Source: Polytrichum commune (lineage: Eukaryota; Streptophyta; Polytrichopsida; Polytrichales; Polytrichaceae). Taken from it: DNA of 64,000 bases. The notes under the pieces are model-generated. The model was given only the letters and a program-made list of their open reading frames with translations, searched no databases and had not been told where the DNA came from. The stretch covers positions 1,676,501 to 1,740,500 of the forward strand of contig OX485805.1 of assembly GCA_950295325.1 (NCBI GenBank). Direction: 5' to 3'. This document shows positions 9,117 to 37,780 of the stretch, one piece after another; within the stretch, counting starts at the first letter, position 1; each line of letters opens with the position of its first letter. The position numbers and the translations under genes were made by a program.

Positions 9117-9716
9117 GTTTCAGTACTGAAACCCTATTCTAAACTTTTCTTTCAAAAAAAATACTTATCATTCATCAATTTTATATTTATGTCATAGCCG
9201 CTGTCCTCATTTTCTTCTATGTTTCTTTCTTTAAAGAAAATTGTGAAATAAGGATTTCGGTACCGAAACTTTTATTTCAAAAAAATTCTTCAAAACAATG
9301 TACTTCTCATTCAACAATTTCATGTCGACGCCATAGCCGATGTCCTAGTTTTCTTTCTTGCTTATTTCTTCAAAGAAAGTTGTGGAATAGAAGTTTTGGT
9401 ACCTGAAATAGAGATTTCGGTACCGAAACCCCTATTTCACAGATTTATTTCAAAAAAAGTTTTTGTCTTTTATCAATTCATTTTGACACTACAACTAATG
9501 TCCTCAATTTTTTCCATGCGTATTTTTTGAAAGAATGTTGTGAAATAGGAGTTTCGATACTAAAACTCTTATTTTATAAATTTTTTTCAAGTATTAAAAT
9601 TTCTTCTTTATTAATTTCATGTATATGTTACAATTGTGGCTTTATGTTTTTGTATGGCTATTTCTTGAAAGTTAGTCATGAAATAGGGGTTTTGGTACCA
9701 AAATCCATGTTCCATA
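9117..9716. repeat. Array of GGTACC-centred palindromes
   Basis: At least five palindromes recur every ~130-140 bp in related flanking sequence: GTTTCAGTACTGAAAC near 9117, TTTCGGTACCGAAA near 9252 and again near 9424, and weaker copies near 9545 and 9685. In most, the arms extend to a GAAATAGR...YCTATTTC frame, giving 30-36-bp near-palindromes. A further diverged copy (AATTTCGGTGCCGAAAATT) lies at 11890-11910, on the other side of the solo LTR, so the LTR split the array. The array lies between the putative first exon and the ParB-like exon of the outer gene. Confidence 0.8.
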
Positions 9717-9737
9717 CTTTTCTTTTAGAAGAAATAC

Positions 9738-11798
9738 TGTCGAGGTCACCTTCAAACCCTCAGCAACTTAGACGGTGTAACCCGCTGTTGACCGGTTTAC
9801 ATGGACACTACACTTATCTAAATTAACTTTTGAAGGTGTTTCCTCTTCGAATAAATCTATAAGGAGAAAGTAGCCTAAGCTTTCAAGCTTACGTTCCCCG
9901 AAATCCTAATGTCGAGGTTAAGTGTTATGAATGAAGAGAGTGTTCTTTTGTAATCAATAACAACATTCTTCCATTCATTTATAAATCCTCAACCAAAGTT
10001 CACAATCACATTACTTTGAGAGTTTTCATTTAACAATTCATTGCAATGCCTTCAAAGTGGAAGTTGACTACTTGATGGTCTTTAATTTCTTCTTTTCTCG
10101 AATGATGGCTTTGAAATCCTCTTAATGTCTTCATTCTTCTAAAGTTCTTTTTTTGTCTGGTTTTCCTTTGTATTCTCTACTCATGAGAGTTTAGTTCTTC
10201 ATTCTTGAATATCTCTAAATTCCTAGGAAAGATCTTTTCTAATCTTCATATTCTCTTGAGTGCTTCGGTCTTGGATTCCTTATGCAATCTTCTTTGTCTT
10301 CACGATGAGCTTCGGATTATGTCAATCTCTTAGCATCTTCACTTTTGATATCTTGACATCTCCTTAGACCCAAAAGGTATCTTAGATCTTGGTTAGAAAG
10401 TTCGTTTAAACCTTTAGTCCTCAAAAGGGCTTCAAACTTGCGGTCTTGGTCTCGGGCTTGCGGTCCTCTGGTCCCGCGGGCCCTCAGTCTCCAAATCTTG
10501 AAGAAAGCTTTCAATGTCTTCAAGTCTTTTCTTGTAGTCCTTGATTTCGTAATCTCTTGAAAAGACCTTCAAATCCTAAAGTCCTCTCGGCCTCTGGTAC
10601 CGTGGTCCTTCAGTCGCGCGGGCCCTCAGATTTTAAGACCGGCGTCGCGCCTCCGCGATTCTTCGAACTCGTTCGTTGCGGATCTTAATTTAAAGACCGG
10701 CTCCGATCAATTCTCCGGACCTTCGGTCTCGTGGGCCTTCAACTCGAAGACCGGCGAAAACGAACTTGCGGACTTTCAATTCGAAAGCCGGCTTCGAGCA
10801 ATCTTGCGGACCTTCAAATTAAGGCTGGCTTCGTGCAATCTTGCGGACCTTCAAATTAAGGTTGGCTTCGTGCAATCTTGCGGACCTTCAATCAAGGCCG
10901 GCTTCGATGACGCTCACGTAGGAATGTTGGAAATGATTAATGAGGTGCTATAGGGGTCCGTAGTGCCCCCTTTATATAGGTTTTGAAATCTTAAAATTGG
11001 TTGAATTAGCGGTTAGGTGTGGCCCCTAATGCCAAATGTCTAAATAGGCTAATTTTAGTCTGAATTAGGGCTACCGTCTAAATTTAGGTCTGCCGGATCT
11101 ATTTACAGAACCCCCACGTGCTAAATATAGATGTTATTGTGGGGAAGATTGGTTATGTTCTTCTAATTTCCTAGATGTGCCTAGGTGTGTTCGGTTACCA
11201 TTCATGAGTCATTCATCCAAGATCTCATCCTTTCATTGCTTAGATGGTTAAAGCGGTTAATGTCATCCAAGGGATGGAAATCCCTTGGCATTGTCTTTCA
11301 TCCACCCGCGTTAGTAAGTACGTGTCCACTCATTGTTGGTTAACTACTAAGTGGTCACTACCTAAAGTCACTAGGGCGCTTGCTTCTCATCCAAAATTTG
11401 ACTACATCATCACTAATCTCTAACCTAACTTACTAATACCTACAACCGTCCATTACGGCTTTGTTTCCGTCGGTTCGCACTCGCTCCCATCGGTTTAGGC
11501 TTGTTCCCGCCGGCCTAATTCGCGTTCCCGCCGCATTAAGTAACGTTCCCGTTCCTTAAGCCACGTGGCCGACGTCTATTGCCTCCCCGTTCGCCTCCGT
11601 GGCTCCCTTGAGTTTACAAGTACCCGGCCGTCCTGGGTATTAACCCAGTCTTCTCTCCATACCGGGTCTCTCCCTGCTGGGTTCCTTGCAAGCCGCTACC
11701 TGTCTGTCTTCTCGCTCCCTCGGCCATCGCTCCATTCTCGCTCTCTGAATTCTTCACTTTGGATCTTCACTCCTACAGCTGGCCTCATTGATCACACA
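9738..11798. mobile_element. Solo LTR (2.06 kb) with 5-bp target duplication
   Basis: The segment begins TGTCGAGG and ends CACACA (TG...CA termini). It is flanked on both sides by AATAC (9733-9737 and 11799-11803), the 5-bp duplication expected of an LTR retrotransposon. No internal retrotransposon genes are present, so it is a solo LTR left by recombination. It is more GC-rich than its surroundings. A TATA-like CTATATAAAG (minus strand) lies near 10970; transcription orientation is unresolved. It interrupts the palindrome array, which continues at 11870. Confidence 0.7.
10690..10905. repeat. 37-bp minisatellite inside the solo LTR
   Basis: A unit of about 37 bp (core GCAATCTTGCGGACCTTCAA with ...GGCTTCG) recurs roughly five times. 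The two copies from about 10810 to 10885 are nearly identical; those to the left are more diverged. Such minisatellites are common in plant LTRs. Confidence 0.8.
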
Positions 11799-14700
11799 AA
11801 TACTCCTAATTTGTCAATTTCAAGTAGAGGGGTTAGCCACTCCCCTCACTTTCTACCATATTTAGTTCTGAAATGAAAGTTTTGGAATGGCAATTTCGGT
11901 GCCGAAAATTTACTTGAAAATAAATATTACCTTTAGTAAACCATTTTTATGTTTTTAAGTCTATATATGTGTTTTTGGTAATATCAAAATCTTGATGGTT
12001 ATGTCAAATATACGGTCATGTAGGTGGCCTTCATTTGTTTTTGCGTTGAACTTTAAATGTCAAGTATATTTCATTTTATAGTCTAATTTATTTATTCATT
12101 TGAAGATGCTTATAATTTGCATTTGATGTTTTGTTGTTGAGTGGATGATTATTTCCGCATGATTTTCTCACTTATTATAGGCTTTGATTTGGTTGTTAAT
12201 ATGTAGCGTAACATTTTGGCGGACACCGACATTGAAGAAACATAAAAATTGAAGTTGGAGAAAATAGATTTTAACTCTGTCATCAATAGCTTGCACAACC
12301 TCTTTCTAAATCTTGTTTATCATTCCTATATGCCGCTTGGAGCCATTGCCTTTGGTTAGGCCAATTCTAGAATTTGATATTTATTTATTAGAGAATGAAT
12401 TTCTCAATGGATATAGATAAGGTGATCGTATCTTGTGTGTTTCTATCGTCAATGATCGTGGGGAGAATTTATGTGTAACAAAAAACAAATTGAGTTCTTG
12501 GGATCCAATATGGCAACAAGTGAACGATGTTTTTGAGCAGTCACTTTCCCGATATGAAGATTTAAAAGTTTTCAAAGGTAAAATATTTTGGGTATAGGAG
12601 GGTTGCCACCGAATTACAGCATGAAGACGGCACATAGATAAAATTCATGCTGATGAGGAGGAATGACATTATAGTGGGGATTGTATATGCCTTAATGCGA
12701 TGAATGCGACTAACGTTCTCTTGATTGTCATGAATGACATCAATAAATAAGGTATGAAGCCCATTGTTTTCAATTTTTTTAGTCAAATGTATTGAATCTT
12801 ATATTTATAAATTTATTTTGTTGAATGGTAAATTCACGAAGAATGATCACGTAAAGACCATTTTCGTTCATAAAATCTATCGCATTCGGAGGTTTGGGAT
12901 TTTTTAACACAAGAATTTAAAAAAAATTGTTCCCTGATGATTATGCTAAGTGCGAAAAGAAACGCCCATTGACTACATGGTATCCTCTATCTGCAAACAT
13001 TTTTGCAGCTTTCATGTACAATGTGAGTCAATTTTATGTTCTTACATTAAGTTGTTTTCTTCTTTTAAACTAAAAAATTTCAATGTTGATTTCAACGTAA
13101 TGTTGTAGCAACATCAGAAGAGGCATGTCGTAAGTACAAGGACAACATCCCGTTGGTCCAAATATCTTTTAGGCTTGAATTGGAGGCTATAGCAAATGCG
13201 GTGAGGAAAATAGTAAGAGCATATAGGTCAAAGGAGTTTGATAAATTCCTTGCAGTTGCGGATCCCGCAAATAACGTTGATTTTGTGAAAAATGTAAGTC
13301 TTAATTTACAGTATTCATTTGATTTTTATAATATGTTTTGTTAGATTATATATTTTATATTCAACATTGTTTTCATTGTTTTTAGGTAAATGAGCATAGG
13401 AATTCCACTCCTAATCCAAAAATGATTTTGGAGAAATTCCAAAAAATTACAAGAACTTTGATGGATGGCAAGTATAAAAAGAAATGATTGAAGTGGTGGA
13501 ATTCATCTCCGATGACACGCGAGGCTTGCATTTTTTTGCCTCCAAATTTTGTATACAATGATCTTGATTTATGGTTGTTGAAAACATTATTTTCATCTCA
13601 GATAATATTATAAATTATAATTATAAATGCATTTATGCTTATGAAAGCACATTAATCATTATTTAACATTTATATTTGTTAAGATAGCTATTTGACATAA
13701 CGCTTTATATATAAATTTTAATCTTTTGTTGGAGGAGGATGCCATCAATGAATTTTATGACATTCTACCATAAATAGGTGATGTGGTTTGGGATAATGTC
13801 CTCTAAATTGGAGATTACATAGAGAAATGACGTTGTCTTCTTTGGAACAAAGCGTATACTTCAATATTATGCGGTTTAATACCATTTGCAAAATCCACAA
13901 TATTGATGAAGAATCATGAAGATGAATTGGCAGTGAAACGTGTGATATATATGTATTTTTTTCCACTTGACTATTTTGAAGTAATAAAATTTACCACCAT
14001 TGGTGATATTGAATTAAATTTGTTTATTGAATTTGTGTAGGTATCTAACAAGGGAGCTCGAATCCCGGAAAGCAATTTTATTGCAAACGTTGTCTTCATT
14101 CTTGAACTCATGGGCTGACATGTCAAGTGACCAATGCATATTTTCAGCCTTGCAGTTGATATTGTGGATTCATGGTTTATTGGTTCATTATCTATAGTTT
14201 ATTGAATATCCAACAAATTTCTATCCCGCCGAAGAAAAAACTTTTGGTTTTCAATGGAACCATCACAACCAATGAAGAAAGAACATCATGAGGAACAACT
14301 ATATGTTGGGAGAGGAGGTAAACGTAAACGGAAAGCGCATGCTACACCAACACCTTCTGTACCAGCGAAAGTGGTTGTACCGTCACCGCCACCGCCACCA
14401 TGTACACCAATGCTACAAAACAATAAAAATAATGTTGATTTGCATTTTGATGATATTGCATTAACTCTTAGTCCATCCCAAGTTGTTATTGCTTCAACAC
14501 CTTCAAATTTTGTTTTTCAATCTCAATATGTGGTTGTTAAAGGTTATGATGGATCTAATATACACAAGGTTTCTACGTTTTTGAAGATTGACTCCATTAC
14601 CAATATGTTGGAGAATGTTGCATCGACAACCTAGTGTTGATGTCGTCGTTTGATTTTTTTTAAAATGTTAGTGAGCTTGAATAATATTAATTAATTTTGG

Positions 14701-15335
14701 ATGTTTTTTCAAGTTTTTGTGCTTGAAAATAATACTTTGTTGTTTATAAAATTCTAATATATTTCATTTTGATTTATAGGTTGGCTATGCTCGCAAGACT
14801 CGTGTTTCGTCCGAAATTTATAAAATTGGTGGATTTGATCTTATCATTACGGATTTGCCAGAGGGTCTGCCTATTCTAAATGTGTCTTCTCCTTCAAATT
14901 TAAGTCCATCTTGGAATGCACATAACTCAAAGGACATAGAGGCTTTATTTGAGTTTACAGATAGTTTTTTCTCACAGATGATGTTTCATTGTTATTATTT
15001 CTTCCGGAGTTCAAAATAGTTAGAACTGATGTTAGAGCATATGCTGCTTCATATGGATTTGCATTGACAAAGGATTGGTGGACAATAAATGAATTACAAT
15101 TGTGTTTGCCAACATATATAAAACTTACGGTACACTCCTATCTAAAATCTTCAAGTATATATTTTTAATATGTGTGGATTATATTTGTTGTTTGATATCA
15201 TGACAAATAACTATTTTCTAATAATGAGTATACAACATTGTATATAGAGTCGACGGTTTCGACTCATGATGTTCTTTCGATTGGAGCCATGTCCACAATT
15301 TGTTTTCAACAAAGTAGGTGGTCTATCTCCAATGG

Positions 15336-15412
15336 GGGAGTGCTATCTTATGAGCGGTGAGCAATGAGCGGTGAGCGATGAGCGGTAACTTATGAGCAGT
15401 GAGGAAGATGAA
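15336..15412 (+). repeat. Left terminal inverted repeat of the inner MULE
   Basis: Reads GGGAGTGCTATCTTATGAGC, then near-tandem 8-bp units (GAGCGGT, GAGCAAT, GAGCGAT), then AACTTATGAGCAGTGAGG. It is the inverted partner of 26885-26971, which carries the same GCTATCTTATGAGC and octamer tract. Confidence 0.85.
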
Positions 15413-15531
15413 AATTTTGGTAATAGGGCCACCAATATCCTATAACCGTGGAATTGTGGCCTTAAAAATGATGATTTTAGGGTTTAGTAATAAGAGGGTT
15501 GAGAAGGATAAACAACATGAAGTCCAAAAAT

Positions 15532-18500
15532 TTATTCATAAGTAGTAGCACTAGACATGAAACTATCTTTTGCCTCGTCATCTATATATATTCGAGCACC
15601 TTTGCATTGCGAATTGATTTTGGAACTATAGCAAGATTCTTCATTTGGATCCGAATCTTCGAGATTCAACATTGCAATTGCAACATTCTCGGCATATGAT
15701 GGGAGACGCGGGCTACGACTTGGACTTCGTAGGAATTGTCTATGTGCCCAAAACGGGAGACATGTCCTCTTTCCAATCGTATTCCTGAAATCAAATCGAT
15801 GAAACGTGTAAATAATGTGAAGAAATAAAAATGAACCAATGAATTGAATGAAACGAATGAATTGAATAAAAAAAATTTGTATCAAAACTTACTCACACTC
15901 AAATTCAAGCATCTCCTCATCCGAGAGGTCATCATCTTCTTTTGTGAGATCTTGTATATTCTCCTTAGATGACCCCTCTTTCAAAACCTTTTCCAAAAGC
16001 GGTTTCAATATGTGCTCAAACATGTCATTATCACCCTCAAATGCAAGAAGATGTCTGCCACATGCGCGTGTTGCTAGGATAGAAGCTCCAGTGGAACATG
16101 TCAAATCAACAACGCGTCCATTCGATGGTGTAAACAATTCAATAAGATCTTGAAAAAAACGCGGCGATTTTTGATATGGCCCCCTCCAAGGTCTTCCCGA
16201 TTTTTGAAGAAGCGTGTTTTTTTCATCCACAAAATTGAAAAGCAAGTTTTTGCTTTTCAATCCAGTGCCGAAAAAAGTGGAGTTTGGTTGTCTCGTGGAT
16301 TTTTTGGTAGTAAAATCCCTTACCAAGACATGAGCCATAAATGCCGGAGTCTACAAAAAAAATGTAAATTGTGTTAAAACTATATACAATGCAAATAACA
16401 CCAAAATAATTAAATAGAAACAATTGTGATGTGTTATACTTACGGTGTAGGTTGGAGACTCCGGATCCTTGAACACCATGTACGAATTGAGGCAAATAAA
16501 AGTCCTAAGAACTTTCATGTTGCCGTTGTGTAAGGTTGAATTCAAAACCTTCTTGGTTTGCATATCGATAGCAGAAAATACTATGAGGACACCATCATCA
16601 GACAAGATGGACTTGCACAAGGACATTGTTGCAACCATCCAGTTCTTGTCATATTTATTCCAAAGAGGAATTTCAGCAGGACTATTGGAGAGGTTGAAGT
16701 CAAAACCGTCCGGAAATTGCAGAAAAACCAAGTCAACGGCAAATGGAGTCGGACTTCCCATGACATGAAATTCGCGATTGTCTTTGAACTGAAATACCAC
16801 AACATATCACAATATAAGACACAAAATAAAATCCAAATGAAAGTAAGAACATTACAGAAAATACAAAATGAAGATTACTTACATTTTCAAGAAATGCCCG
16901 CCATTGGATCCACTCAGGAGGGCTTACTTCAACCCCTTCAGACTTGTTCTTGACAGCAGTAGATCGAGCAAAAGAGAGCGTAAGAAAGTTCTTCAGTATG
17001 AATAACTCTTTTCTCAAAACATTCGTTGGCGCACGATGAATAGCGTCATAGGTGCTAGAATAATGAAATTCCAATACATCGCACCCGGATTTTGAACTTT
17101 CGCCTCCAAGTGTATTCTTATCCAAATCATTGGAAAGAACAAGCAATTCTTCATGTTGTGAAATTTCCGATTGACCTTGTATTTTGGTTTCAGGAACATA
17201 TTTTCTCTTACGACGTTTTGTCTCTTTTGGTTCTGGCTCTCTAAGTTTAAGCTGCACAATTTGTGCTTGCAAAATTGCAGTATCACGAGGATCTACATTT
17301 TTGGCATCATTTATCTGACGGATTGTCTTCTCACTTGACGGACATGCATCCTTAGGACAATCAAGATACCAACCACAATCCTCATAGTGTGGGAGCGACC
17401 AATCTAAACAAATCTCAGTAGTGAACATGCATGAGTCTTCCGCACCAGTGTCAAGCCAATTTGGAAAAAAACGAGGTTCTCCTATAACGCATTTGTGCGG
17501 AATCAAAACATATCGGAAATACCTACACACAAAAATATTATGAGCCAAATATTGAATGAAAAGTAAAATGTAATGAAAAAATATCAAGAAATAGTAAAGA
17601 ATAAGTTGTACCTGTATAGAACACGCTTCATAGCAAGATCAATATTCGGTTGCTCATCCCAAACGTTGTATTTTTTTACTTTTCCGCTTTTGAATTCACG
17701 ATAGAATATTGAATTGAAAGCCGCAAACTTCCAGGTTTGGATATATTCGGAGAGAGTAGGCACATCTGCAGGCAATTGAAGAGGAGATGAAAGAATACTT
17801 TGAAGCTCTTCAATAGCTTTTTTCTCTAACTGTGCCCAATATGTAGCCTTTGATAACCAATCATCAAGTGCAGAATCAGAGAGGGGTGATTTCGGGAAAT
17901 GCAATGCATCTTTGTCAAATCTATTGCCATTCCAAAGCTTGAGCCATCCGACTTTGACATCTGGATCCACATTACTAACAGCAACACGATGAAGTTTCTC
18001 TTGTAACATTTCAGGCACCGAAAATGAACTCCAATGGTGCTTAATTTCTTCAAGAAAAGCAGGGGTGAGGTTGATGTCAGCAATTGCTAGTTGTTTTGTA
18101 AAACTAGAAGACAACATTGCACGTTTTTTGTTGACAGCTGCGGACATTGCTTTAGAAACTCCTTCTGAAGTTCGTTCAAGAGGATGGGTTTCATTGTAAA
18201 GGTTGAGAGCAATATCGCTAGCCTCGGTAAGTTCTTGCTGAAAAATCAAACAAAATCCAAAATTAATAAGTACATATAGATGTGATCTAAATGAAAGATA
18301 AATAAACATTAAAAACATAGTAGGAAATGCTAGAAAAACTTACACTGTACATATAATCAAGAAAAATTGGCCGCGTCAAAGAATACCAAGTTTCAACGGA
18401 CTTCTCCTCACATCGCTTATAACTTCTAGGATCCAGTTGTTTTTTAAAAGAAGTCAAAGGCATGGTGCCAATACTTTGCATCCGATACAAAGTATGCACC

Positions 18501-21500
18501 AAATTGGTAGAAACGTGAGAGTTTTCTGTTGACCTGAAAAAATATTGAATTCATGGATTTAGGATGATATAATTCAAATAACAAAATACAAACCAGAAAT
18601 AAATGAAAATAAAGAAGTAAAAACATTACTTGTTGATGTCGTGCATAGCAGTCAACAAACTTGGAATGTCATCAAGCTCGGGCGCCAAAATGATGGAATC
18701 CACAACGACATGAAGCTCGTAATCTTCGGTATGCAAGCGGTCAATATAACTTTTCCAAGCAAAAAATCTGTGATTACCATCCCATATGAAGAACATCTTG
18801 TTCTTGTATGATGTAAATGAAGGATCGGCATTTAACTCAGTTTCAAACACCGCATTAGCTTGAGCCCAATTTGGGCTCCAAGATGCACGAACCTCGTCAT
18901 CTACAAATTGAAAATTTCCCTTAGAGTCGGTAGCCGATAGATAAAACACACGGTCACCATCACGATAACCATTGAAAAAGTCAGCCTCCAATTTAGTGAT
19001 GTCGCCTCTCAAAGCAGGACGCACAATAGGCATTGGAACCATGCGACATAAAGGTACACGCAAACGAGATTTCGGTCCAGCACGGATTGAAGAAATTGTT
19101 GAAGTGGAATTAACCTTTCGCTTGTCCGTAAGCTCCCAGACTTTCTGTTGATAGGTTTTATTGTCACCATCATTATCTTCATCCGAGTCAAAATCATCGA
19201 GAGATTCATTTATTTTTTTCTTTTTCTTATTATGAAGATTTGACGATATGTCCTGATGAACATGAACTTGTTGAGATGGACGATCTTGAGTTGAATGCAT
19301 TGTAGAATCATCACCAGTAGAAATAACAGTCGTTCTCTCCAAATCCATTGATTGGTCCTAAAACAAATGAAATAAGTTTCATAAATATTTCAAAACCAGT
19401 AGAAACACATTAGCAATAACATTACAAAAACAACAGCAATAGCAACAACAATAACAACAGAATACCACGAACACAAGGAAAAATAACAAAAATGATTCTA
19501 AACACTACCATTTGCACCTTTAAATATTGTACGATAAGGGTGGCCGCTCACCCCAAAACTACAAGGGCAGACCCTGTGCGTTAACGCACAGGGTCTGTGT
19601 GTCCAACTACAGGTCTACAAAAGTTGGGCGCGAGGTTTGGGTCGAACGACCCAAACTGTCCACGCGGTTTCGATCGAGCGACCCAAACTAGACGGACAGT
19701 TTGGATCGACCGACCCAAACTAGACGGACAGTTTGGGTCGCTCGACCCAAACTAGGCCGACAGTTTGGGTCGCTCGACCCAAACTAGGTCGACAGTTTGG
19801 GTCGAGCGACCCAAACCAGGCAGACAGTTTGGGTCGAGCGACCCAAACCAGGCAGACAGTTTGGGTCGACCGACCCAAACTGCCCGTAATTTACGCCTAA
19901 TTATGCGCAATTACCCAGTCATCACGAAAATACAAACAAACCTTGTACTGCACCTGTAGATGAGAGAGCTTGCAGCGACGAGCTCCGGTCCTATAGATGA
20001 GAGGAAAAAGACTGAATGCTTTGAAGGTGTGGCAATTTATACTACTCGTCCCTGCGGCCATATTTAGCGTGGCTCTTCGTGCCCCGCATAGCCGCTAGAA
20101 AGTTGCCAGCACAGACCCTGTGCGTTAACGCACAGGGTCTACTTGCCCAACTTTGTGAAGCCTTTAGCTAGGCAAGTAGACCCCGTGCGTTAACGCACAG
20201 GGTCTGCGCTGGCAACTTTGAGGCCACTGTGCGTTAGCGCATAAGGCCTGTGCGTTAATCGCACAGGGCCGAGACTTGAATTTGCTAAAAACTTTTTTTT
20301 TTGAATTTGGAGAAAAACTTTTGTCTGGAATTGGTAGATTTGCCAAAACTTGTAAAATCTGGAAAAAATGCTAATGGGGTCCAAAAAATAAATAAAAAAT
20401 ATGCTATATTATCTAAATCTTCGTAGCTACAAAATCTTCTTATATTTTGTTTTGGTTTGAAATCATTTTCTTTTCTCATTCTTCTATCTATTTCCTTGTT
20501 TTGGGCGACCTCGTAGATTTTGGGTTTCGGGGTAAAAAAAAAATAATGCTATTTTGTGTCATTTTCTAGCTCCTATAACGTATTGCATGAATACTTGAGT
20601 AGACATATTTCTCATTTCTTGCATTCTAACCCCGTTTTGAATGGTTTTTTTGTTCCTACGCTCTGAAGATCGATTTAAATTCATACAATAAATATTTGTT
20701 TACTTTTAGGCTCTCCTAGTCGTTTTACCTCCCAACTTTTGGCCTTCCTAAGTTGCTCTTACAAACCCTGTGCGTTAATGCACAGGGTTTCTCCTCCCAA
20801 CTTTTTGCCTCCTAAGTTGCTCTTGCAAACCCTGTGCGTTAACGCACATGGTTTCTCCTCCCAACTTTTTGCCTCCTAAGTTGGTCTTGCAAACCCTGTG
20901 CGTTAACGCACATGGTTTCTCCTCCCAATTTTTTGCCTCCTAAGTTGCTCTTACAAACCCTGTGCGTTAACGTACATGGTTTTTCCTCCCAACTTTTTGC
21001 CTCCTAAGTTGCTCTTACAAACCCTGTGCGTTAACGCACAGGGTTTCTCCTCCCAACTTTTGGCCTTCCTAAGTTGCTATTACAAATCTTCTGCGTTAAC
21101 GCACAGGGTTTTAGCTCCCAACTTTTGGCCTCCCTAAGTTGCTCTTATAAACCTTGTGCGTTAACGTATAGGGTTTTACCTCCAAACTTCTTGCCTCCTA
21201 AGTTGCTCTTATAAACCCTGAATGTTCTCCTCCTGACTTCTAGCCTTCCTAAATTTCTGTTATATATCATGTGCATTAACGTATAGGTTTTTTCCTCTCC
21301 AATTTATAACTTCTATAAATTGCTACTACATGATATGTGAGTGAACGTACAAGGTTCTCCGTCCTAACTTACAACTTATGCACTATCAAATTATGTGAAC
21401 GTTGAACTGACTTACCTTTTTGTTTGTCGTCTTCTTTGAACCCGTCTTCAATTCGGACTCTGATATACGATCATCTATATCTTCTTTGCTCTTTGCACCT

Positions 21501-21697
21501 TCATCATCCTCCATCGCATCAAAATCCAGTGTCTTCATAGTTTCTTCTACCGTACTCAACAAGTTTTTTTTCCCTTCCTTATTTGCATTCTTCTTTCCCA
21601 CACTCAGTCTGAACCTCTTTTTCTCGAAAGTGAAATACAAAGCTTTCCTACGTCTTCTCTTCGGCCTCACGGGTGTTCTCTCTACATCGTCCACCAT
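15532..21697 (-). CDS. ParB-like domain plus beta-class DNA methyltransferase-like protein of the MULE (8 exons, 1,173 aa)
   Basis: Exons (minus): 21697-21416, 19357-18630, 18533-18344, 18237-17612, 17522-16883, 16788-16444, 16350-15893, 15784-15532. All junctions are GT-AG with matching phases, giving 1,173 codons plus a stop. Residues 1-94 are basic/acidic with an RPKRRRRK nuclear-signal-like patch. Residues ~195-337 form a domain with FFNGYRDGDR and WDGNHR (D287-R291), resembling the ParB/sulfiredoxin-like DG(N/H)HR motif. Residues 823-937 hold the motif IV region, where the usual (D/N/S)PP(Y/W) reads LQFPDG (845-850). Residues 1019-1025, DLTCSTG, match SAM-binding motif I (DxFxGxG), followed by an acidic AFEGD (E1042). 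Motif IV before I is the beta-class N6/N4 order. The family suggests DNA adenine or cytosine-N4 methylation, but the altered motif IV makes activity doubtful. Its role in the element is unknown. The promoter region is shared, divergently, with the transposase gene. Confidence 0.8.
19568..19597. repeat. 30-bp perfect palindrome
   Basis: A perfect self-complementary 30-mer whose core is CTGTGCGTTAACGCACAG with flanks CAGACC...GGTCTG. It is the isolated first member of the GCGTTAACGC palindrome family that recurs at 20113-21176. Confidence 0.95.
19635..19882. repeat. Tandem array of TTTGGGTCG-NN-CGACCCAAA palindromes (8 units)
   Basis: Eight near-identical palindromes TTTGGGTCGNNCGACCCAAA (the central dinucleotide varies: AA, AG, AC, CT) are spaced ~31-34 bp apart, with spacers such as CTAGACGGACAG and CAGGCAGACAG. 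All but one or two have perfect arms. The same palindrome recurs at 24511-24660, inside the intron of the transposase gene. Confidence 0.95.
20099..20219. repeat. Inverted repeat of two palindromes
   Basis: Two GCGTTAACGC-centred palindromes (20113-20140 and 20178-20205) lie in inverted repeat arms: AAAGTTGCCAGC on the left pairs with GCTGGCAACTTT on the right, and inner GGTCTACTTGCC pairs with GGCAAGTAGACC. The whole ~120 bp can fold as one long hairpin or as two separate cruciforms. A third, less perfect pair follows at 20225-20272. Confidence 0.9.
20700..21340. repeat. 64-bp tandem repeat with GCGTTAACGC palindrome core
   Basis: A ~64-bp unit (TCCTCCCAACTTTTTGCCTC, CTAAGTTGCTCTTACAAACC, then the palindrome CTGTGCGTTAACGCACAG) is repeated. 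Palindrome cores lie near 20763, 20827, 20891, 20955, 21019, 21084 and 21149, with at least two decayed copies after that. Spacing is constant at 64-65 bp. Single-base differences (for example CACATGG for CACAGGG) are shared by neighbouring units, which indicates tandem expansion. Confidence 0.95.
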
Positions 21698-22339
21698 CGT
21701 TGGTGTCTATGATATGTTTTCTATCAGGTACTATCTTTTATTCTTCCAATGTATCTATCTCACAAAATCCGGCGTATATTACAATCACATGTTGTAATTG
21801 GCGTTCAATGAGCGAGATATTTCGACGCGTTTGTCATTATGTGTTTATTTTTGTTATATCCGCCAAAATTTTCTGACACCTACTTTGTTCTATTCATAAT
21901 GAGCAATAATTTATTTTTCCAACCAATTTTAATTCTTTCTACATCTATGTCAGTCCACACATATATATTTTTGTTTTCTACCAATACTTTTAGTATTTGA
22001 CGCCATTTTGTATATATCTTGCTCGTAAATATTCTCTGACTATTATTGTGTTATGTCCACTTCTGTATTATTAGATGCTATGTATCACACGCTTTCATCT
22101 CCATCCATTATTGTATCACACGTTTTCATTTCCATTCATTTCCTCACACAACTCTATACAAAACCAACATTCACCCCATATTTTTGTGATGTGTTGTTCA
22201 TATATTCTTTTGATTTTCTATGGCTACCATTAGAGCTCATGGATCTTTTGTTTCCTTCATCTTGCCACTCTAAGATGATGGTCATGTGAGTGTTTCAGAG
22301 GATTTACTTAGTTTGAGATTCAACCTCCAGATAGGAACC
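21698..22339. promoter_or_regulatory. Divergent promoter region of the two MULE genes
   Basis: This ~640-bp gap separates the start codons of the minus-strand methyltransferase-like gene (21697) and the plus-strand transposase gene (22340). Each has its 5' end here, so it should hold both promoters. It is AT-rich, with TATA-like tracts such as ATATATATTTTT near 21960. No specific element can be assigned from sequence alone. Confidence 0.5.
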
Positions 22340-25300
22340 ATGTATTTAGAGCATGAGATGTACTCTGCAGATGGAGAGGTGTATGAAACGATTTTGGTTC
22401 CAAAAAATAGAACTGATGTTGGTTTTATGTGGATCTTAGGACCTGGTTCATTTAGGGTGATAGGACTTTCTGAGTCTCAGATGCAAGCTTCAACTGTCAT
22501 TTTGACAAACGAATCCGGTACATCCACAGTTCAAATTCCCTCTATCGCACATGTTAAGGTGGAACCCCTTGATGATAGTGTGTTTGTGCTATCAGATTCA
22601 GAAGATGACATTTGTGCATCTGTTGATCTTTCAAACACATCGCCATTTCCATTTAGAAGTGTTCATTCTACTCCCTCCCAACTTCCTATACATATAGCCA
22701 AATCCCCTTGCGGTCTTATGTACAACAAGGTGGTTCCCCAAATCTCACCTTCTCAACGTCCTCCACTACACCCTTCACCTTCATCTACAGGGTTGACTAT
22801 GGTTGATGCCTTGAAGCTGACAAAGTCAAGAAAAAGATCAAAGTCCGATCTTGCATCCATTGATTTTGACAGTATAGATGTTCGTGAAGTCAAGTACTTA
22901 CCATCTTCTTTTAATGGTGATGTTTTGTTTCTCTTGCATCCTGTGGCACTCAAAGCTCCAAGTACGTATGGTCGCTCAATGGACGGCATGGACAAAATGT
23001 GCGACGGTCATCCTTGGTGCACCACCAAAACCACGAATATCCAAAATGACTTTGGACTGTCCTTCCGGCGCTCTACTTGTGCTGGTCATCTCCAATGTCA
23101 TAATGACTACTGTGATTACATGAATCGCAATGGGGGCCTCCGGAACAACACGGAATGGGCCGGTTCAACTCCTATCCCATTTGCTGTGGGTGTTGTTCCC
23201 CCTACTAAGTCCACTGTCGAGTGTAAGGTATGTCGGTCCACACCTATGTGCATTGCTTTGTGTAATGTTCGAATCATATACATCCACTCCACATCCGTTG
23301 GAATGTCCAGGGCTTGCATTCATCTTGGTGTACATGATCACCATGTGGCCAATGGCACATGCCGTGAATCATTGGACATGACATACCAATGCGTTGCAAA
23401 TGAAGTATTGAAAACACCCACAGCAAAAAATTCAGCCATAGTTATGGCGGTGAGCAAACAATTCTTGGCCGATTACCTTCTCAAATCTCCCGCAAATGTC
23501 GAAGGCCATCACTTGATTGGTTCATCCCTAGAGGTCGTCATGGACAAATTCAGCACTCTTGCCTCTCCAAATTGTCGTAACTTTGTATCTGGATCAAAGC
23601 GTTTTTTGCGTAGTGGAATGGGAACTATGGATAGTATTATGGCGCTCAAAGACCACTCTGCTTTCAAATTCGTCCATGGTAGTCGGTTCCCAGGGCAGTC
23701 AAAGGACAAAGTGTTTGTTTTCAAGATGTCTGTAGACCTTCCAGGTAGTGGTGTGGAGCTTGTGAAGAGGATGCAAGTCGGTGGGGATATGGAGAATTCA
23801 TGGATTATGTTTGACCATGTCAAACGTTTGAAGGACTGGACGACCATGGCTTGCCATGTGTACGACAGTCGATATTGTAAAGTGTTGACTATTGCGTGTT
23901 GTGACATGCAATCTGAAGATGGTGCAGTACAAATTCTCTTTTGGGAAAATTTGAATGCTGTCATAGCAGAAAATGGTGTACCATACGTAAACTTCAAAGG
24001 GTTTATGGCTGATAGTGCTCAAGCTAATTGGAATGCGGTGAGGGCGATTTACGGGGATGGTGATCCAAGTCTACCCATGGTTGCACATGAGCGTACATGT
24101 CTTTTCCATTGGTCCGCAAGCTTGGATAAGGTGACCCAAAAGTATATCAAACCATCCTTGCAATTTCAACACAAACAAATATGCAAGGATTACAAAGACG
24201 CGAAAACAATGGACGACGCTGAGACCAAGTACCATGTGATTCGTTCTTGGTGGTTGTCATCTGGAGCTGCCTCCAAGGAAGGCATCCTTGGCCTTTCAGA
24301 GTGGTTGGGATTTTGGCACTTTCGTTACAGACAATGGGGTGGCCATATGCTACTTGTAAGTACATATCAAACTTCATTATTCAATGTAATATATCTTATG
24401 TTTTTCTTATCTTTGTCTTTCTGTATTGTTCATAGGATATGACAATAGAAGAGCGTACGGGAATGCCAACATGCAACCTTGCAGAGACTGTACACAACAA
24501 ACAACAAATAGTTTGGGTCGTTCGACCCAAACCTTGTATGCAGTTTGGGTCGAACGACCCAAATGTGGCAGGCAGTTTGGGTCGAACGACCCAAACTACG
24601 CAAACAGTTTAGGTCGTTCGACCCAAACGTGGCAGCCATTTTGGGTTGAACGACCCAAACCTAAATATATAATCTATCTTATGTTTGTCTTATCCTTGTA
24701 TTTGTGTGTTGTTCATAGGATATGACAATAGAAGAGCATGCGGAAATGCCAACATGCAACCTTGCAGAGACTGTACACAACAAATGGCTCCAACAGTCCG
24801 GCAACAAGATGACTTGTTTATATGAAGCTACAGTGGACGACATGATCCGTGCTTTCATGCAAATTGCAAATTACCGGACATGGTTGAAAGGGGGGTCTGA
24901 TGGTAAAGGTCCTGATTCGGCATCCTTGAAACTCAAAGCGGCTGCAAGGTGTGGAGATCCAAAAATGTTGGCCGATGCCATGAAGTCTTATCCAGGGGCA
25001 GAAGACGTCAACACTAGAGATTGTGCATTGGAAGGGTCAGAGCTCTTTGGTTCCACCAAACGCAAACTCAACCTACCACCGGGTGCTGATTGTGACTCTC
25101 ATCGACCCGACAAAGTGAATTATTCCATTCCCCGTCCGAACACCCGAGCAACTCGTCAACGCATAGAGGAATCGTTAAGTTCTGCAATTCATGATGTGGC
25201 TCATACTACATCCGTGTTAGAGACTGATTGTCTTGCTTCCAACTGGCACATTGCAAGATTACCACCCAACTCAGCCAAACGATGTTGGGCACTGCAGGCC

Positions 25301-26086
25301 ATCACAGGGACTATGTGCAATGCCAAAGTCGGGACTGGGAAACATGGCACACCTGCTCCAACATACAAAGGGCTCAGGAAGGAATTTCGCTCTCCCAACA
25401 ATGTGGAGTATAAATTTTGGTTTTGCCCTGACGACATCAAACGTTGTGTGAGTGGCAGTAAGAAGAAATATGTGTTGGACTGGCCTATAGTACCCAACAC
25501 GTGGCCGGTGAAGATAGGTACCAATCTATCGCGAGAGGAGGTTTTGGCACTTGAAGATGCTGGATTTCAACTACAGCAGAGGGAGGCATTGTCCCCTCGT
25601 CGTAGGCTTTCAACAATCGCAACTCTTCCCATCCCTCGCTCGCATTTTTCTATGCCACCAAACCCGGACGCCCACCCTACATTCAGGTTTGGGAAGACAG
25701 TGCGTCGTAATCCAACAGCACCGCTAGCGGATCACAAAAACAAATGGGAGAGCGCCGGACTCATGGAGGGTTACTATGTGGTTGGGGTCACTGCCATTCC
25801 ATATCCGGGCTTTGGAGTGATAATCAACATTGTCTCCAAGCAGGATATCACCTACCATGTCACAATTGGCGACATCCCGCATTGCACATGCCCGGATTTC
25901 ACGAAAATGTCCTCTCATGCATTGGGAAAGAAAGGAAAATGGGTGTATTGTAAACATCTTTATTATGTGTTTAGATTTTTGTGCAAGGTGGATTACGAGA
26001 GTGATAAGTTCATTCATGCACCTACATATACCTATAACGAGGTCATGCGACTACTTGAACTTGCTGGTATCGTAGAGTGTGAGTAG
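22340..26086 (+). CDS. MULE transposase with SWIM zinc finger (2 exons, ~1,127 aa)
   Basis: Exon 1 is 22340-24355 (donor CTT-GTAAGT) and exon 2 is 24719-26086 (acceptor TTCATAG). The ATG at 22340 is the first in frame after a stop at 22271; an unseen upstream exon ending at the CAG near 22299 is possible. Residues ~220-260 hold Cys/His pairs (CDGHPWC, then CAGHLQCHNDYC), like the N-terminal zinc-binding domain of MULEs. The DDE core shows CCDMQSED (D522), FMADSAQANWNAV (D558) and the MULE hallmark CxxH at C587-H590 (TCLFHW); the third acid is not assigned. The C-terminus has a SWIM finger, C1061-x-C1063-x19-C1083-x-H1085. It should cut and rejoin the element ends in the nucleus. The frame is open throughout, so it is probably active or recently active. 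AATAAA lies near 26159. Confidence 0.85.
24385..24787. repeat. Duplicated splice acceptor flanking a palindrome cassette
   Basis: 24385-24502 and 24669-24784 are direct repeats of ~118 bp, each holding the intron 3' end (TTCATAG) and the first ~65 bases of exon 2 (GATATGACAATAGAAGAGC...). Between them (24511-24660) are five TTTGGGTCG-CGACCCAAA palindromes, the family seen in intron 1 of the neighbouring gene. Only the downstream acceptor leads into the long exon 2. Use of the upstream one runs through the palindromes to a stop. Confidence 0.9.
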
Positions 26087-26755
26087 TATTGCAAATGGTC
26101 TATTAAGTACCATATATTTGAATGTCAAAATATGACATGTTTTGGTTTGGATTTTTATAATAAAAATCAGCAATGGGCTGGAAGTATTTCAAATGATTCA
26201 GTACGACCCAACCGTGAGCGGTTTGATTGATTGACATGGATAAATAATAACAAGTTTCTAAAAATAAAAAATAATTGAGAAGATTCTACGTACATCCGCG
26301 TAGTAACGTCTTCTTGGTATCCGCCTATAGATTATTCCTACTTTATCACTAGCTCAATTTGGGATAGCACCAGTCAATGTAACCAACCGGATTCGAACCC
26401 GGGTTGATACAGACCTAATACCAGTCTCTTACACAACTCGCATCCACAGGCGGATGTCTCAAAACCTAGTAGTTACCTACATATTGACTATTTCTAATAT
26501 CTAATTTCCTTTCATTTGTAGATTATGGGCCTTAATTCAACCCGTGAGCAGTTTGAGTGGCTCACAATTATGGCACCTACATGTACGTATAATGAGGTTA
26601 TGCACCTACTTGAACTTGCTGGTGTTGTGGAATGTGAGTAGTTGTGCAAGTGTTGGTTGTAACTACATGTATAAGGATGTCAATAAATGACATGTATTGG
26701 TTTGGATTATTATAATAAAAATCAACAATGAATTGAAAGTGTTTTAAATGATCCA
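26027..26755 (+). repeat. Duplicated 3' end of the transposase gene
   Basis: 26027-26220 (last coding codons, stop and AATAAA region) is repeated at about 26577-26752 with ~85% similarity (CTACTTGAACTTGCTGGT, GAGTAGT, GGTTTGGAT, AATAAAAATCA). The stretch between, 26220-26570, holds the tRNA-like segment below. The copies share an edge word near CCGTGAGC(A/G)GTTTGA, which suggests tandem duplication rather than retroposition. Confidence 0.8.
26270..26480 (-). mobile_element. tRNA-related segment (possible SINE)
   Basis: On the minus strand, CCCGGGTTCGAATCCGG contains a perfect RNA polymerase III box B (GGTTCGAATCC). Upstream is a possible anticodon-like arm (AGACTGGTATTAGGTCT). A T-rich tail lies ~110 bp downstream. 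Position 33 of the loop is not T, there is no proper acceptor stem and box A is poor, so it is not a functional tRNA gene. A tRNA-derived SINE is the likeliest reading. Confidence 0.4.
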
Positions 26756-26884
26756 TGGAAATAGGGCCCTTTCACTTGTGCTTCATTTAAAATATTGGCA
26801 ATTTATAATTGAAAATATGCAATTAATTTGTCAAAATTTTGGTTGTGTACCCTAAACCCGTGTGTCTTTACTAAGTTTGGAATC

Positions 26885-26971
26885 ATTGCTCATATGTTAC
26901 TGCTCATTGCTCATGTGTTACTGCTCACCGCTCACCGCTCACTGCTCATCGCTCATAAGATAGCTTCCCTC
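26885..26971 (-). repeat. Right terminal inverted repeat of the inner MULE
   Basis: Read on the minus strand it starts GAGGGAAGCTATCTTATGAG and continues with GAGCGATGAGCAGTGAGCGG-type octamers, then AACACATGAGC and AACATATGAGC. It pairs with 15336-15412. It is directly followed by the target duplication at 26972-26982. Confidence 0.85.
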
Positions 26972-28095
26972 ATCTCCAATGGAAGTGGGGGCCCTAGATA
27001 TCTTCTTTAATCGTACTATGTCCAAAATTCAATTAATGCACAAAAATATTCTATAGATAGGTACACGTGAGAAAGACCTAGAGCCTTTGCAATTTCTTAT
27101 TGAAACATTAACTAAACCAACAGATGTTGTCCTTGACGCTTATGCATTTACATGTTAAAAACAAGTTTTTTTTTGTTTTTCTTGTAAGTTTTAGAATTTA
27201 AGTCTTTTGTATATGACAAATATGATATGATGTGCACGATTGTATTTATTGCAGGTGTATCTATTCATGTTTGCCGTCGTAGTGGATGACACCTTGTTGC
27301 ATTCGAGAAAGACTCGGCAATTTTTAACTCAATATTAGCCCCTTTGTGTGAATCATTGCCACCTCCTATTGTCCATGGCTTGCAATCAATTAACATAGCA
27401 TGCGAAGATGATGATGAGCCTATTCGGAAAGTTCCAAAGAAATCTTGCTCGAGTGCGTAAGTTTGTTGGTTTAAATGATTTTAAATTTTTGGTTTTTCTT
27501 GTGGACTATTTAATCTACCACAAATTGTTTCTAACACTTTTGGATATTGTGTGTAGAAAAATGAAGGAAGCGATGCCCCCCCCCCTCATCGATTGATTCT
27601 CCTTGTGTATGCCGAGTCTGAGGCGATACGGTTAACAACCATCATTACACCTCCAAGGTGAAGTAGATCTAAACATTATGATCTTCGTATCTTGACATTC
27701 ATGGATATAGAGGTAGAGGAATGTAATGTTCATGTTTGCAATAATAAGGAGAATAATAGATAATAGAATAGAATAGAATATAGGTGCATGAAGAGGTACG
27801 TACGTCTTGCACATGTTTTTTTTTGTGGCAATTATCTAGTTTTTATAAAATAACCACTAAGAGTGGACATTGATTTGTGTGAGCATTGTCTAAAATCCCT
27901 AAACCCTAATGATTTCCACAACATCATTGTTTTATAGCTTCCATTATTGTTTCAAATGTTCATATGAATTGAAGCAATCAATTGGCAAGTTAGTTTTCAA
28001 CATGTAACATGTGTTGATGTTTGAGCTACAAATATGTGGTAATAGGATACAAAACCCATGGTGATGGGTATGTTTCTTGAATTTTTCTCACCCTA

Positions 28096-28151
28096 ATCCG
28101 CTCATTAGTTACTGCTCACTGCTCGCTGCTCATATGATAGCGCTCCCCCTC
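28096..28151 (-). repeat. Right terminus of the outer MULE
   Basis: Read on the minus strand: GAGGGGGAGCGCTATCATAT, then GAGCAGCGAGCAGTGAGCAG and AACTAATGAGC. This matches the inner element's ends (GCTATC-TTATGAGC plus octamers). It lies ~0.5 kb past the last remnant of the outer methyltransferase-like gene, so that gene also belonged to a MULE of this family. No left partner was found in the window; the outer element appears truncated or its left end decayed. Confidence 0.75.
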
Positions 28152-34984: not shown

Positions 34985-35910
34985 ATGGTGAATACTACAT
35001 TGGCATCAATACTAGCACTCAACAATGTCGGCCAACTCAAGTAGTCACATGACCTCATTGTAGGTGTATGTTGAAGCATGAATGAACTTGTCATGATCAT
35101 AATCCACCTTTCATAAAAAGTTGAACACATTGTCAAGGTGTTTGCAGTACACCCATTTCCCTTCTCAAAACACAAGAGAATGTCTTCGTGAAGTCCGGGC
35201 ATATGCATTGTGGGATGTTACCAAGTGTTACATGATAGGTGACGCCCTCCTTTGAGACAATGTTGATGGTAACTCTAAATCCTAGGTAAGGAATGATAGT
35301 CACTCCCACAACATAGTATCTATTAATGAGTCCAACACTCTCCCATTTGATTGTGTGATTGACCATTGGTGTTGTTCAATTCCGTCAAAGTGCCTTGGAA
35401 AATCTTGAAGTTGGGTGGAAGTTCAGGTTTGGAGGCACATGGAAATGCGACCTGGGGATGGGGAGTGTCGCAATTGTTGAAAGCCTACGACGAGGCAAAA
35501 GTGCCATCCTCTGTTGCAATTGGAGTCCGGCATCTTCAAACGCCAACACCTCCTCCCTTGAGGGATTTGTACCTATTTTCACATGCCAAGTGTGGGTACT
35601 ATAGGCCAAGCCACATCATATTTCTTTTCTTTTTTGCTACTCACACAACATTTGATGTTGTTGAGGTGATACCACAATTCATACTACATATTGTTGGTGG
35701 AGTGGAAATCCTTCTTCAACCCCTTGTATGTTGGTGCAGGGGTGCCATGTTTGTATGTTCCAACTTTCGTATTGCACAAAGTCCATGTATTGGTTTGCAT
35801 TGCCCAATACCTTTTGGCAGAGTTGTATGGCAATCTTGCAATGTGTAGTTGTGTTGACAAGTTGTCCGAATGGTAGGAACACAATACTAAACATTTCAGG
35901 ACTTTGAGGA
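34985..35910 (-). pseudogene. MULE/SWIM transposase remnant (C-terminal half)
   Basis: Minus-strand pieces match exon 2 of the intact transposase in order: LHIARLPYNSAKRYWAMQ and KHGTPAPTYKGLKKDF (35900-35690); WHVKIGTNPSREEVLAFEDA and RRRLSTIATLPIPRSHF (35609-35400); IKWESVGLINRYYVVGVT and QCICPDFTK (35366-35170), the first half of the SWIM finger; then the DKFIHASTYTYNEVM tail near 35050. Frameshifts separate the pieces and the DDE core is absent. 35940-36060 has only ACATGGGAAC-like low-complexity repeats. Confidence 0.85.
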
Positions 35911-37320: not shown

Positions 37321-37329
37321 GTGTCACTA

Positions 37330-37780
37330 TTTTTTTGGAAGTTTGGACATAGTCTCGGTTTTTTGGCTCTCAAAAATTCATATGAAGTCCAAAAAATGAG
37401 TTCTTGGTATCCATGGATAGGTAATGAAGTCCTCTACATGAATATGCAATAATATTTCTATTTCCACAAAGTATATGGTCGCAATTCTACGCTGTTCCCT
37501 TTGAATCTGCACTTTTTCACTAGTTTTTTTAAGTTTGGACATAGTCTCGGTTTTTTGGCTCTCAAAAATTTATATGAAGTCCAAAAAATAAGTTCTTGGT
37601 ATCCATGGATAGGTAATAAAGTCCTTTACATGAATATGCAATAATATTTTTACTGCCAAAAAATATATGGTCGCAATTCTACGCTGTTCCATTTGAATCT
37701 GCACTTTTTCACTAGTTTTGGAAGTTTGGACATAGTCTCGGTTTTTTGGCTCCCAAAAATTCATATGAAGTCCAACAAAA
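37330..37780 (+). repeat. ~191-bp tandem repeat (2.3 copies)
   Basis: GTTTGGACATAGTCTCGG recurs at 37341, 37533 and 37724 (spacing 192 and 191 bp), with the whole unit conserved. Each full unit contains a 12-bp palindrome TATCCATGGATA. It lies 5' of the methyltransferase-like remnant, the same relative place as the palindrome arrays of the other two copies. Confidence 0.85.

Follow-up and report, generated by a model that had tools for sequence, protein, structure and literature searches.

A transposon with a divergent accessory gene

The stretch of Polytrichum commune DNA analyzed here, 64,000 bp of contig OX485805.1 (the window), contains a transposon that carries, divergently from its transposase gene, an accessory gene whose product joins a domain that models as a ParB/sulfiredoxin fold to a domain apparently derived from beta-class DNA methylases (Table 1). 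An earlier note, written from the letters of the window, had described the two genes, and this part of its description holds: splicing the accessory gene at GT-AG introns gives eight exons and exactly the 1,173 amino acids it had stated, and both reading frames of the window element are open, that of the transposase (1,127 amino acids) across both of its exons. What it missed are arrays of palindromes within the introns of both genes, the change of these palindromes together with the accessory gene, and the nesting of the whole element within an older relative. We compared the window element with 8 further fetched copies (n = 9) and searched a genome of 408 Mb in 64 contigs. The LEAFY domain occurs at 4 places in this genome, as would be expected of a land plant or of an alga closely related to land plants, in agreement with the plant host named in the note; sequence features suggest that it is not a flowering plant.

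Table 1. Positions of the element, its genes and arrays, and the surrounding relic within the window.
Feature	Position	Strand	Remarks
Whole element	15335-26971	.	Defined by 10-bp target duplication and inverted termini
Left target duplication ATCTCCAATG	15325-15334	.	Length fixed from comparison of copies
Right target duplication ATCTCCAATG	26972-26981	.	Length fixed from comparison of copies
Accessory gene, ParB-like plus methylase-like	15532-21697	-	8 exons, GT-AG introns, 1,173 amino acids, open
Accessory-gene exons 1-4	21697-21416, 19357-18630, 18533-18344, 18237-17612	-
Accessory-gene exons 5-8	17522-16883, 16788-16444, 16350-15893, 15784-15532	-
ParB/sulfiredoxin-like domain, exon 2	18632-19108	-	Signature DGNHR; 21-row alignment, structure model, comparison with PDB
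Methylase-like domain, exons 6-7	15893-16788	-	Reads QFPD at motif IV and DLTCSTG at motif I; catalytic residues degenerate
Transposase gene	22340-26086	+	Exons 22340-24355 and 24719-26086; ATG at 22340; 1,127 amino acids
Array of TTTGGGTCGNNCGACCCAAA, accessory-gene intron 1	19635-19881	.	Period 32 bp
Second array of TTTGGGTCGNNCGACCCAAA, transposase intron	24510-24662	.	Period 32 bp
Array of AAACCCTGTGCGTTAACGCACAGGGTTT, accessory-gene intron 1	20728-21220	.	Period 64 bp; extra single sites within 19575-20243 and 21270-21351
Relic of older related ParB/methylase gene, left part	12322-15160	+	Element inserted into relic
Relic of older ParB/methylase gene, right part past insertion	27224-27415	+	E = 7e-5
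Decayed palindrome array of older element, GTTTCGGTACCGAAAC type	9117-9704	.	Mostly 137-138 bp apart; further site 11893-11908

The element is bounded and has inverted termini, as the earlier note stated, but the 11-bp target duplication given there does not hold. The duplication is 10 bp in all 6 copies for which both ends were found (of 9 examined); the apparent 11th duplicated base in the window is a flanking G that matches the G with which the element begins. The termini are imperfect inverted repeats (GGGGAGTGCTATCTTATGAGC... and GAGGGAAGCTATCTTATGAGC...) with short internal repeats. Mutator-like elements (MULEs) make target duplications of 8 to 11 bp (PMC6446971), and the element has both a duplication of this length and terminal inverted repeats. 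We base the MULE label mainly on these two features and on a CxC..H block spotted by eye. Of the SWIM/CxxH MULE transposase claimed before, the SWIM domain appeared only as a Pfam match below the cut-off (13.0 bits versus 19.6; E = 0.076), no Pfam MULE transposase model matched at E values up to 1, and Pfam and NCBIfam searches of the transposase gave no usable assignment.

All 9 copies carry the accessory gene, one of them (c3_8M) without exons 6 to 8 in the piece fetched. Under the identical eight-exon model, its frame is open in 4 copies, the window element and three others, and broken in 5, by two to three stops in two copies, by frameshifts in another two, and by an in-frame stop in c3_8M. 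Three of the 8 further copies had been picked as having no accessory-gene match among the matches listed beside their transposase, and since all three proved to carry the gene, we rejected the possibility that many copies lack it; the earlier note had allowed for the gene being consistently missing elsewhere, which is not what we found. Among 93 related transposase loci scored genome-wide, at least 69 have a ParB-type exon upstream on the opposite strand within 10 kb and at least 72 within 25 kb (lower bounds, drawn from a list of 150 ParB loci). Shifted-position controls for the 25-kb count gave 0 at each of four distances, and a ParB-type exon on the transposase's own strand lies within 25 kb at 1 locus or more. 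Two of the 21 loci with no listed ParB exon within 25 kb were fetched: L053 carries a different ParB gene, and L054 has an interrupted transposase and no ParB gene within 9.9 kb. Together, these counts show that the accessory gene is a constant part of the transposon family.

The window-type copies fall into two subfamilies, A and B. Between them, the accessory gene has a ratio of nonsynonymous to synonymous differences per site (pN/pS; 20 pairs) of 0.22 and the transposase one of 0.24; for the corresponding ratio of substitution rates (dN/dS), the 3 A-B pairs open for both genes give 0.15 to 0.16 and 0.20 to 0.22, respectively. The accessory gene, like the transposase, is under purifying selection. 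Synonymous divergence (pS) between A and B is 0.23 in exons 2 to 5, 0.04 in exons 6 to 7 and 0.06 in the transposase, and the higher value in exons 2 to 5 points to recombination.

The first domain of the accessory protein carries the signature G-x-H-R, in which G, H and R are invariant in 21 of 21 aligned rows. A structure model built from 21 relatives reached a predicted local distance difference test (pLDDT) of 82.8 and a predicted template modeling score of 0.82, and when it was searched with Foldseek, 33 of the top 35 rows (53 in all) were ParB, Noc, PadC, SbnI or sulfiredoxin structures; Agrobacterium Atu1540 accounted for the remaining two of the 35. The domain therefore models as a ParB/sulfiredoxin fold, in agreement with what had been proposed from its DGNHR motif. 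The family is highly divergent: none of its 21 members matched Pfam ParB_N (PF02195) at E values up to 10, and Pfam, NCBIfam and PHROGs searches with the ParB part gave no useful match. Ordinary ParB_N matches above the cut-off do occur on contigs C12 and C23, perhaps representing organelle or bacterial DNA in the assembly.

The C-terminal part is, judging from profile comparisons, clearly related to beta-class DNA methylases. It matches the DNA methyltransferase family PHROG_67 (E = 7e-8) and, in pairwise profile alignment with hhalign, two phage methylases over the motif X-I-II block (E = 4e-9), and motif IV precedes motif I, the beta-class order that the earlier note had recognized. Of the profiles that it had proposed, PF02195 gave no match and Pfam N6_N4_Mtase (PF01555) a match below the cut-off (E = 0.023). 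In beta-class methylases, motif IV reads [DNS]PP[YFW] or DxPY and motif I reads FxGxG, and the aromatic residue of motif IV and the residues of motif I are needed for catalysis. The accessory protein has neither consensus. Its motif IV reads QFPD in the window element; among 16 exon-6 rows, 13 have D-x-P-E and 0 have an aromatic residue, 15 of these rows coming from related families and hence not being independent. The 4 rows that extend over motif I show TCSTG, TAATG or TASTG there, with the first glycine lost. These changes suggest that the domain has probably lost catalysis. A phmmer search of the methylase part against solved structures gave 0 matches at E values up to 10, and its structure model, built from an intron-containing read-through, reached a pLDDT of 38.8, too low to judge the fold, so that the fold test proposed earlier covers the ParB domain. 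Given the worn catalytic motifs and the low confidence of this model, we call this domain methylase-derived rather than a methylase. A related methylase exon occurs in at least nine copies of equal score (220.1 bits, 94% identity), with a tenth of equal score at 93%; the identical scores suggest a recent burst of that family.

Palindrome arrays and their exchange with the accessory gene

Two kinds of perfect palindrome are arrayed within the window element. The first (TTTGGGTCGNNCGACCCAAA, the GGGTCG type) has 13 sites in the 64 kb when up to 3 mismatches are allowed, compared to 0.01 expected, and steps of 32 bp within each array; the second, counted as TGTGCGTTAACGCACA, has 13 sites at the same stringency, compared to 0.22 expected, with steps of mostly 64 to 65 bp. 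All 26 sites are intronic, lying in accessory-gene intron 1 (19358-21415) and in the transposase intron (24356-24718), and neither palindrome occurs elsewhere in the window with up to 3 mismatches. Both kinds are present in all 9 copies, with 10 to 22 sites of TTTGGGTCGNNCGACCCAAA (both arrays) and 6 to 21 sites of AAACCCTGTGCGTTAACGCACAGGGTTT per copy. Exact sites number 9,731 and 694, respectively, across the genome, whereas the same patterns read backwards have none. The palindrome arms are more conserved than their flanks (88% versus 52% and 90% versus 72%), a difference that is partly biased, as units were picked by arm similarity. The palindromes of all families have a CG-N4-CG center (CG-N2-CG in the GGGTCG type) and thus contain CpG sites that the plant could methylate.

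A blind test, in which repeated inverted repeats were scored per locus and scores of 3 or more were counted, was positive for 9 of 9 window-type copies, 7 of 10 further gene-family loci and 3 of 3 loci of an unrelated transposon, F2, which is considered below. As a baseline, shuffled sequences scored about 1 on average and reached a maximum of 3 once, and 5 of 6 control stretches scored 2 or less, the sixth scoring 3. With observed sites far above expectation and this test in hand, we rejected a chance origin of the arrays. The loci counted as belonging to the gene family include partial views: at L055 to L060 the ParB exon was seen without methylase exons, and at F3b and C1:468k methylase exons were seen without a ParB match.

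The clearest view of how palindrome and gene are associated comes from loci at which similar transposases accompany different accessory genes. At L053, the transposase is 90% identical to that of the window element over the 468 residues in the piece, and the ParB domain is 43% identical. This locus has neither window palindrome. It has instead its own array of GTGGCCGTTAACGGCCAC, 11 sites in mostly 105-bp steps (3 of them altered at the center), in the equivalent position upstream of the ParB exon. The DNA of L053 is 89% identical to the window from 22013 rightwards and 71 to 75% identical in two pieces over 21407-22009, and there is no detectable identity over the remaining accessory gene. 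L057 and L058 similarly combine transposases of 73 to 93% identity with ParB domains of about 44% identity and the palindrome GGGTTTCGGTACCGAAACCC, and L055 combines a transposase of 77 to 84% identity with a ParB domain of 45% identity and 3 sites of GGCATCTCGGATCCGAGATGCC. More distant members have further palindromes, GTGTCTCGGTNNCGAGACAC in F3 and GGTGCCGTTAACGGCACC in L060. Comparison of these sequences shows that the type of palindrome varies with the accessory gene rather than with the transposase, and the accessory protein is therefore the best candidate for their reader.

The window holds a further instance, since the element is nested within an older, decayed relative with a ParB-methylase gene of the same kind. 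The control stretch that scored 3 in the blind test led to this older element. Over the ParB domain, its relic gene shares 39% identity with the window gene (E = 9e-33), and a methylase motif region remains at 14780-15016. The relic ParB peptide shares 79 to 82% identity with the L057/L058 type, against no more than 55% with the other 19 of 21 rows, and beside it stand 6 matches (up to 3 mismatches) to the L057/L058 palindrome, at 9117-11908, compared to 0.15 expected in 64 kb, with none elsewhere in the window. The L057/L058-type ParB relic and the L057/L058 palindrome thus occur together, and ParB and palindrome types match here too. A terminus resembling the element's own lies near 28147, in the stretch of about 28090-28147.

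A candidate self-addressed regulator

The combination of a ParB-type domain with palindromic sites, tandemly arrayed within introns of the same element, suggests a self-addressed clamp. The ParB-type, presumably nucleotide-binding clamp domain, together with the methylase-derived domain, would recognize the element's own palindromes, as ParB recognizes parS, and with arrays in introns of both genes, the bound protein would coat the region that expresses them. The likely outcome would be anti-silencing, in which the element's regulatory DNA is kept free of host silencing; this is the leading outcome because of two precedents, VANC of Arabidopsis transposons and the bacterial protein VirB. We infer binding of the palindromes by the accessory protein, inactivity of its methylase part and an anti-silencing effect, and we give a probability of roughly 0.5 to its being a parS-like, self-addressing, sequence-specific DNA-binding regulator, most likely an anti-silencing factor as VANC is. 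A wider proposal, which we hold a little less firmly, is that these transposons contain exchangeable cassettes, each a ParB-methylase-like gene with its own parS-like array. A swap of cassettes would give an element a new private address, by which relatives may escape each other's regulation or silencing learned by the host, and the system would be a eukaryotic, transposon-borne counterpart of ParB-parS serving anti-silencing.

Several observations weigh against a dedicated pairing of accessory protein and palindrome. The linkage of array and gene is physical, and their exchange together is therefore no proof of recognition. In addition, the GGGTCG palindrome (GGGTCGNNCGACCC) is also abundant in F2, a large transposon-like family with a gene containing a DGQH motif and a divergent gene that may be Sola-like. 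Three F2 loci (L017+L018, L019+L020 and L021+L022, on contig 1 at 0.6, 1.2 and 2.1 Mb) hold 27 to 40 GGGTCG palindromes each. Alignment of the F2 DGQH gene with the ParB-like and methylase-like parts by hhalign gave probabilities of 1.5 and 0.2, which do not confirm its identity, and F2 is therefore left out of the evidence for the ParB reading. An NLI/FCP-type phosphatase domain (PF03031, E = 4.5e-15) was found in F2 at the one locus tested. Given that this palindrome occurs with an unrelated F2 protein, it may have another reader. The first 100 listed GGGTCG places (about 0.43-2.16 Mb of contig 1) form 7 clusters, 4 of the window family and 3 of F2, and one of the former, near 475 kb, also holds a small array that may belong to an F3 element.

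Other points on the same side concern the gene family and its protein. Three of the 10 other gene-family loci lack a perfect palindrome family: F3b; L056, which has an inverted repeat around a 4-base loop; and L059, where near-palindromes form an array. At L060, unlike L053, L055, L057 and L058, the transposase relative and the ParB exon are on the same strand. Inside the subfamilies, pN/pS of the accessory gene is 0.65 to 0.74, so that selection is visible only on the longer A-B branch. The Foldseek E values are weak (best 0.055, none below 0.001), and the VIA Z scores of the ParB-domain model (7.8 for PadC and Noc, 7.5 for ParB and KorB) lie below 8, in a range that, by the tool's own note, models lacking a clear match often reach. 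Since scores this low are common without true relationship, it is the consistency of the structure rows that carries the ParB argument. The low confidence of the methylase-part model belongs here as well.

Alternatively, the same protein could act on the same palindromes as an autorepressor controlling copy number, or as a partner of the transposase in excision. Protein bound to the arrays, which lie in the first intron of its own gene and in the intron of the transposase, could keep both divergent genes from being transcribed. The observations fit this reading and anti-silencing alike, but the parallels with VANC and VirB favor activation, and we regard this alternative as unlikely.

It is somewhat less likely that the reader of the palindromes is the transposase or a host factor, or that they are self-expanding minisatellites, and that they travel with the accessory gene only by lying inside it. 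Their physical linkage within intron 1 means that exchange would move gene and array together, and the GGGTCG type is found both in an unrelated transposon and at thousands of sites across the genome. A transposase reader, however, is at odds with similar transposases accompanying different palindromes, and slippage alone would not maintain the perfect palindromes that 7 of the 10 other gene-family loci keep despite their sequence differences. The greater conservation of arms than flanks, with the selection bias stated above, also argues against a minisatellite.

A still smaller chance attaches to an active N6-adenine/N4-cytosine methylase that marks the element's DNA, as the earlier note and the authors of a study on Ectocarpus suggested. 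The clear beta-class relationship in motif order and sequence and the purifying selection on the gene fit this possibility, as does the description of the Ectocarpus protein as a predicted producer of N4-methylcytosine or N6-methyladenine, in the passages devoted to it (PMC12477816). The uniform absence of the motif IV aromatic residue and the replacement of FxGxG in every row covering motif I oppose it, and methylase activity is not supported.

The least probable explanation by far is that the palindromes act as intronic RNA hairpins that control splicing or give rise to small RNAs. All sites are intronic and would be expected to fold strongly, but wobble pairs of the accessory gene's sense strand are not clearly enriched among broken pairs (GGG type, both introns pooled, 87 of 327; TTAAC type, 39 of 235 versus 114 of 235 on the opposite strand), in a weak test whose units share ancestry.

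Known systems and neighboring sequences

The gene type itself is already known, and the novelty claimed in the earlier note was too wide. The transposon Sola1-1 of Ectocarpus has an accessory protein of 1,104 amino acids, ParB-like and then methylase-like, encoded on the strand opposite the transposase, and the paper describing it suggests that proteins of this kind act on their own transposon, which they would bind and modify, with cases from red and green algae cited (PMC12477816). In orientation, size and domain order, compared here by description, it is like the accessory protein of the window element; it differs in belonging to the Sola superfamily, in a brown alga, and in being predicted as an active methylase. 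The passages of that paper on Sola1-1 mention neither palindromic arrays nor exchange of modules. Three points are new here, as far as searches of open-licence PubMed Central papers show: the gene sits in a MULE-type element, in a plant that has LEAFY; the palindrome arrays are specific to the element; and gene and array are naturally exchanged together as one cassette. Whereas the passages proposing algal ParB-methylase proteins name no binding site (PMC12477816), each type here has a candidate site, usually a perfect palindrome array. In addition, natural swaps separate the candidate site from the transposase, which makes self-recognition by a transposon testable in a simple binding experiment.

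VANC proteins are linked to DUF1985, and no Pfam match of this type was found in the accessory protein at E values up to 1. The VANC system is also marked by loss of DNA methylation in trans. In other respects, the VANC proteins of Arabidopsis VANDAL elements offer a close functional parallel: like the (putative) DNA-binding protein described here, they are accessory proteins borne by MULEs with variable specificity, and their element-specific target arrays lie in introns and noncoding DNA and differ between families (PMC5735166, PMC10398659). The motif arrays of VANDAL21 are likewise found within introns of VANC21 and VANB21 (PMC5735166). The VANC21 motif is 9 bp, non-palindromic and arrayed in one orientation (PMC5735166), unlike the palindromic motif here, and the passages on VANC mention no ParB or methylase domain (PMC5735166, PMC10398659). 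If the anti-silencing role is correct, the function of VANC would have been invented a second time, by an unrelated route that started from a bacterial DNA-segregation domain, and this would explain how related elements change their regulatory address.

Bacterial ParB, Noc, KorB, PadC and VirB share with the accessory protein the fold of the first domain (as modeled), the G-x-H-R signature and palindromic sites (candidate sites in our case). Members of the ParB superfamily bind CTP and slide from a palindromic site. The plant family differs in having no Pfam ParB_N match, in its fused methylase-like domain, and in being carried by a plant transposon. VirB is described as an anti-silencer of the ParB superfamily that acts from a palindromic site (PMC10653881, in the passages on this protein). 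The methylase-derived domain resembles phage and plasmid beta-class methylases, such as gp48 of Ruminococcus phage phiRM10 and gp028 of Cellulophaga phage phi10:1, in its IV-then-I order and alignable X/I/II block; single-sequence matches are weak (E = 0.02 to 0.4), and the plant family appears to have lost the catalytic residues. In dinoflagellates and charophytes, retrotransposons also carry a DNA methylase-type gene; theirs encode C5-cytosine methyltransferases, with no ParB domain mentioned in the passages on these enzymes (PMC5890265).

To the right of the element, a relic of a related transposase lies on the minus strand at 35015-35872, 61 to 80% identical and with stops inside, and a tandem repeat with a unit of 192 bp (2.4 copies, 92% match) occupies 37324-37780.

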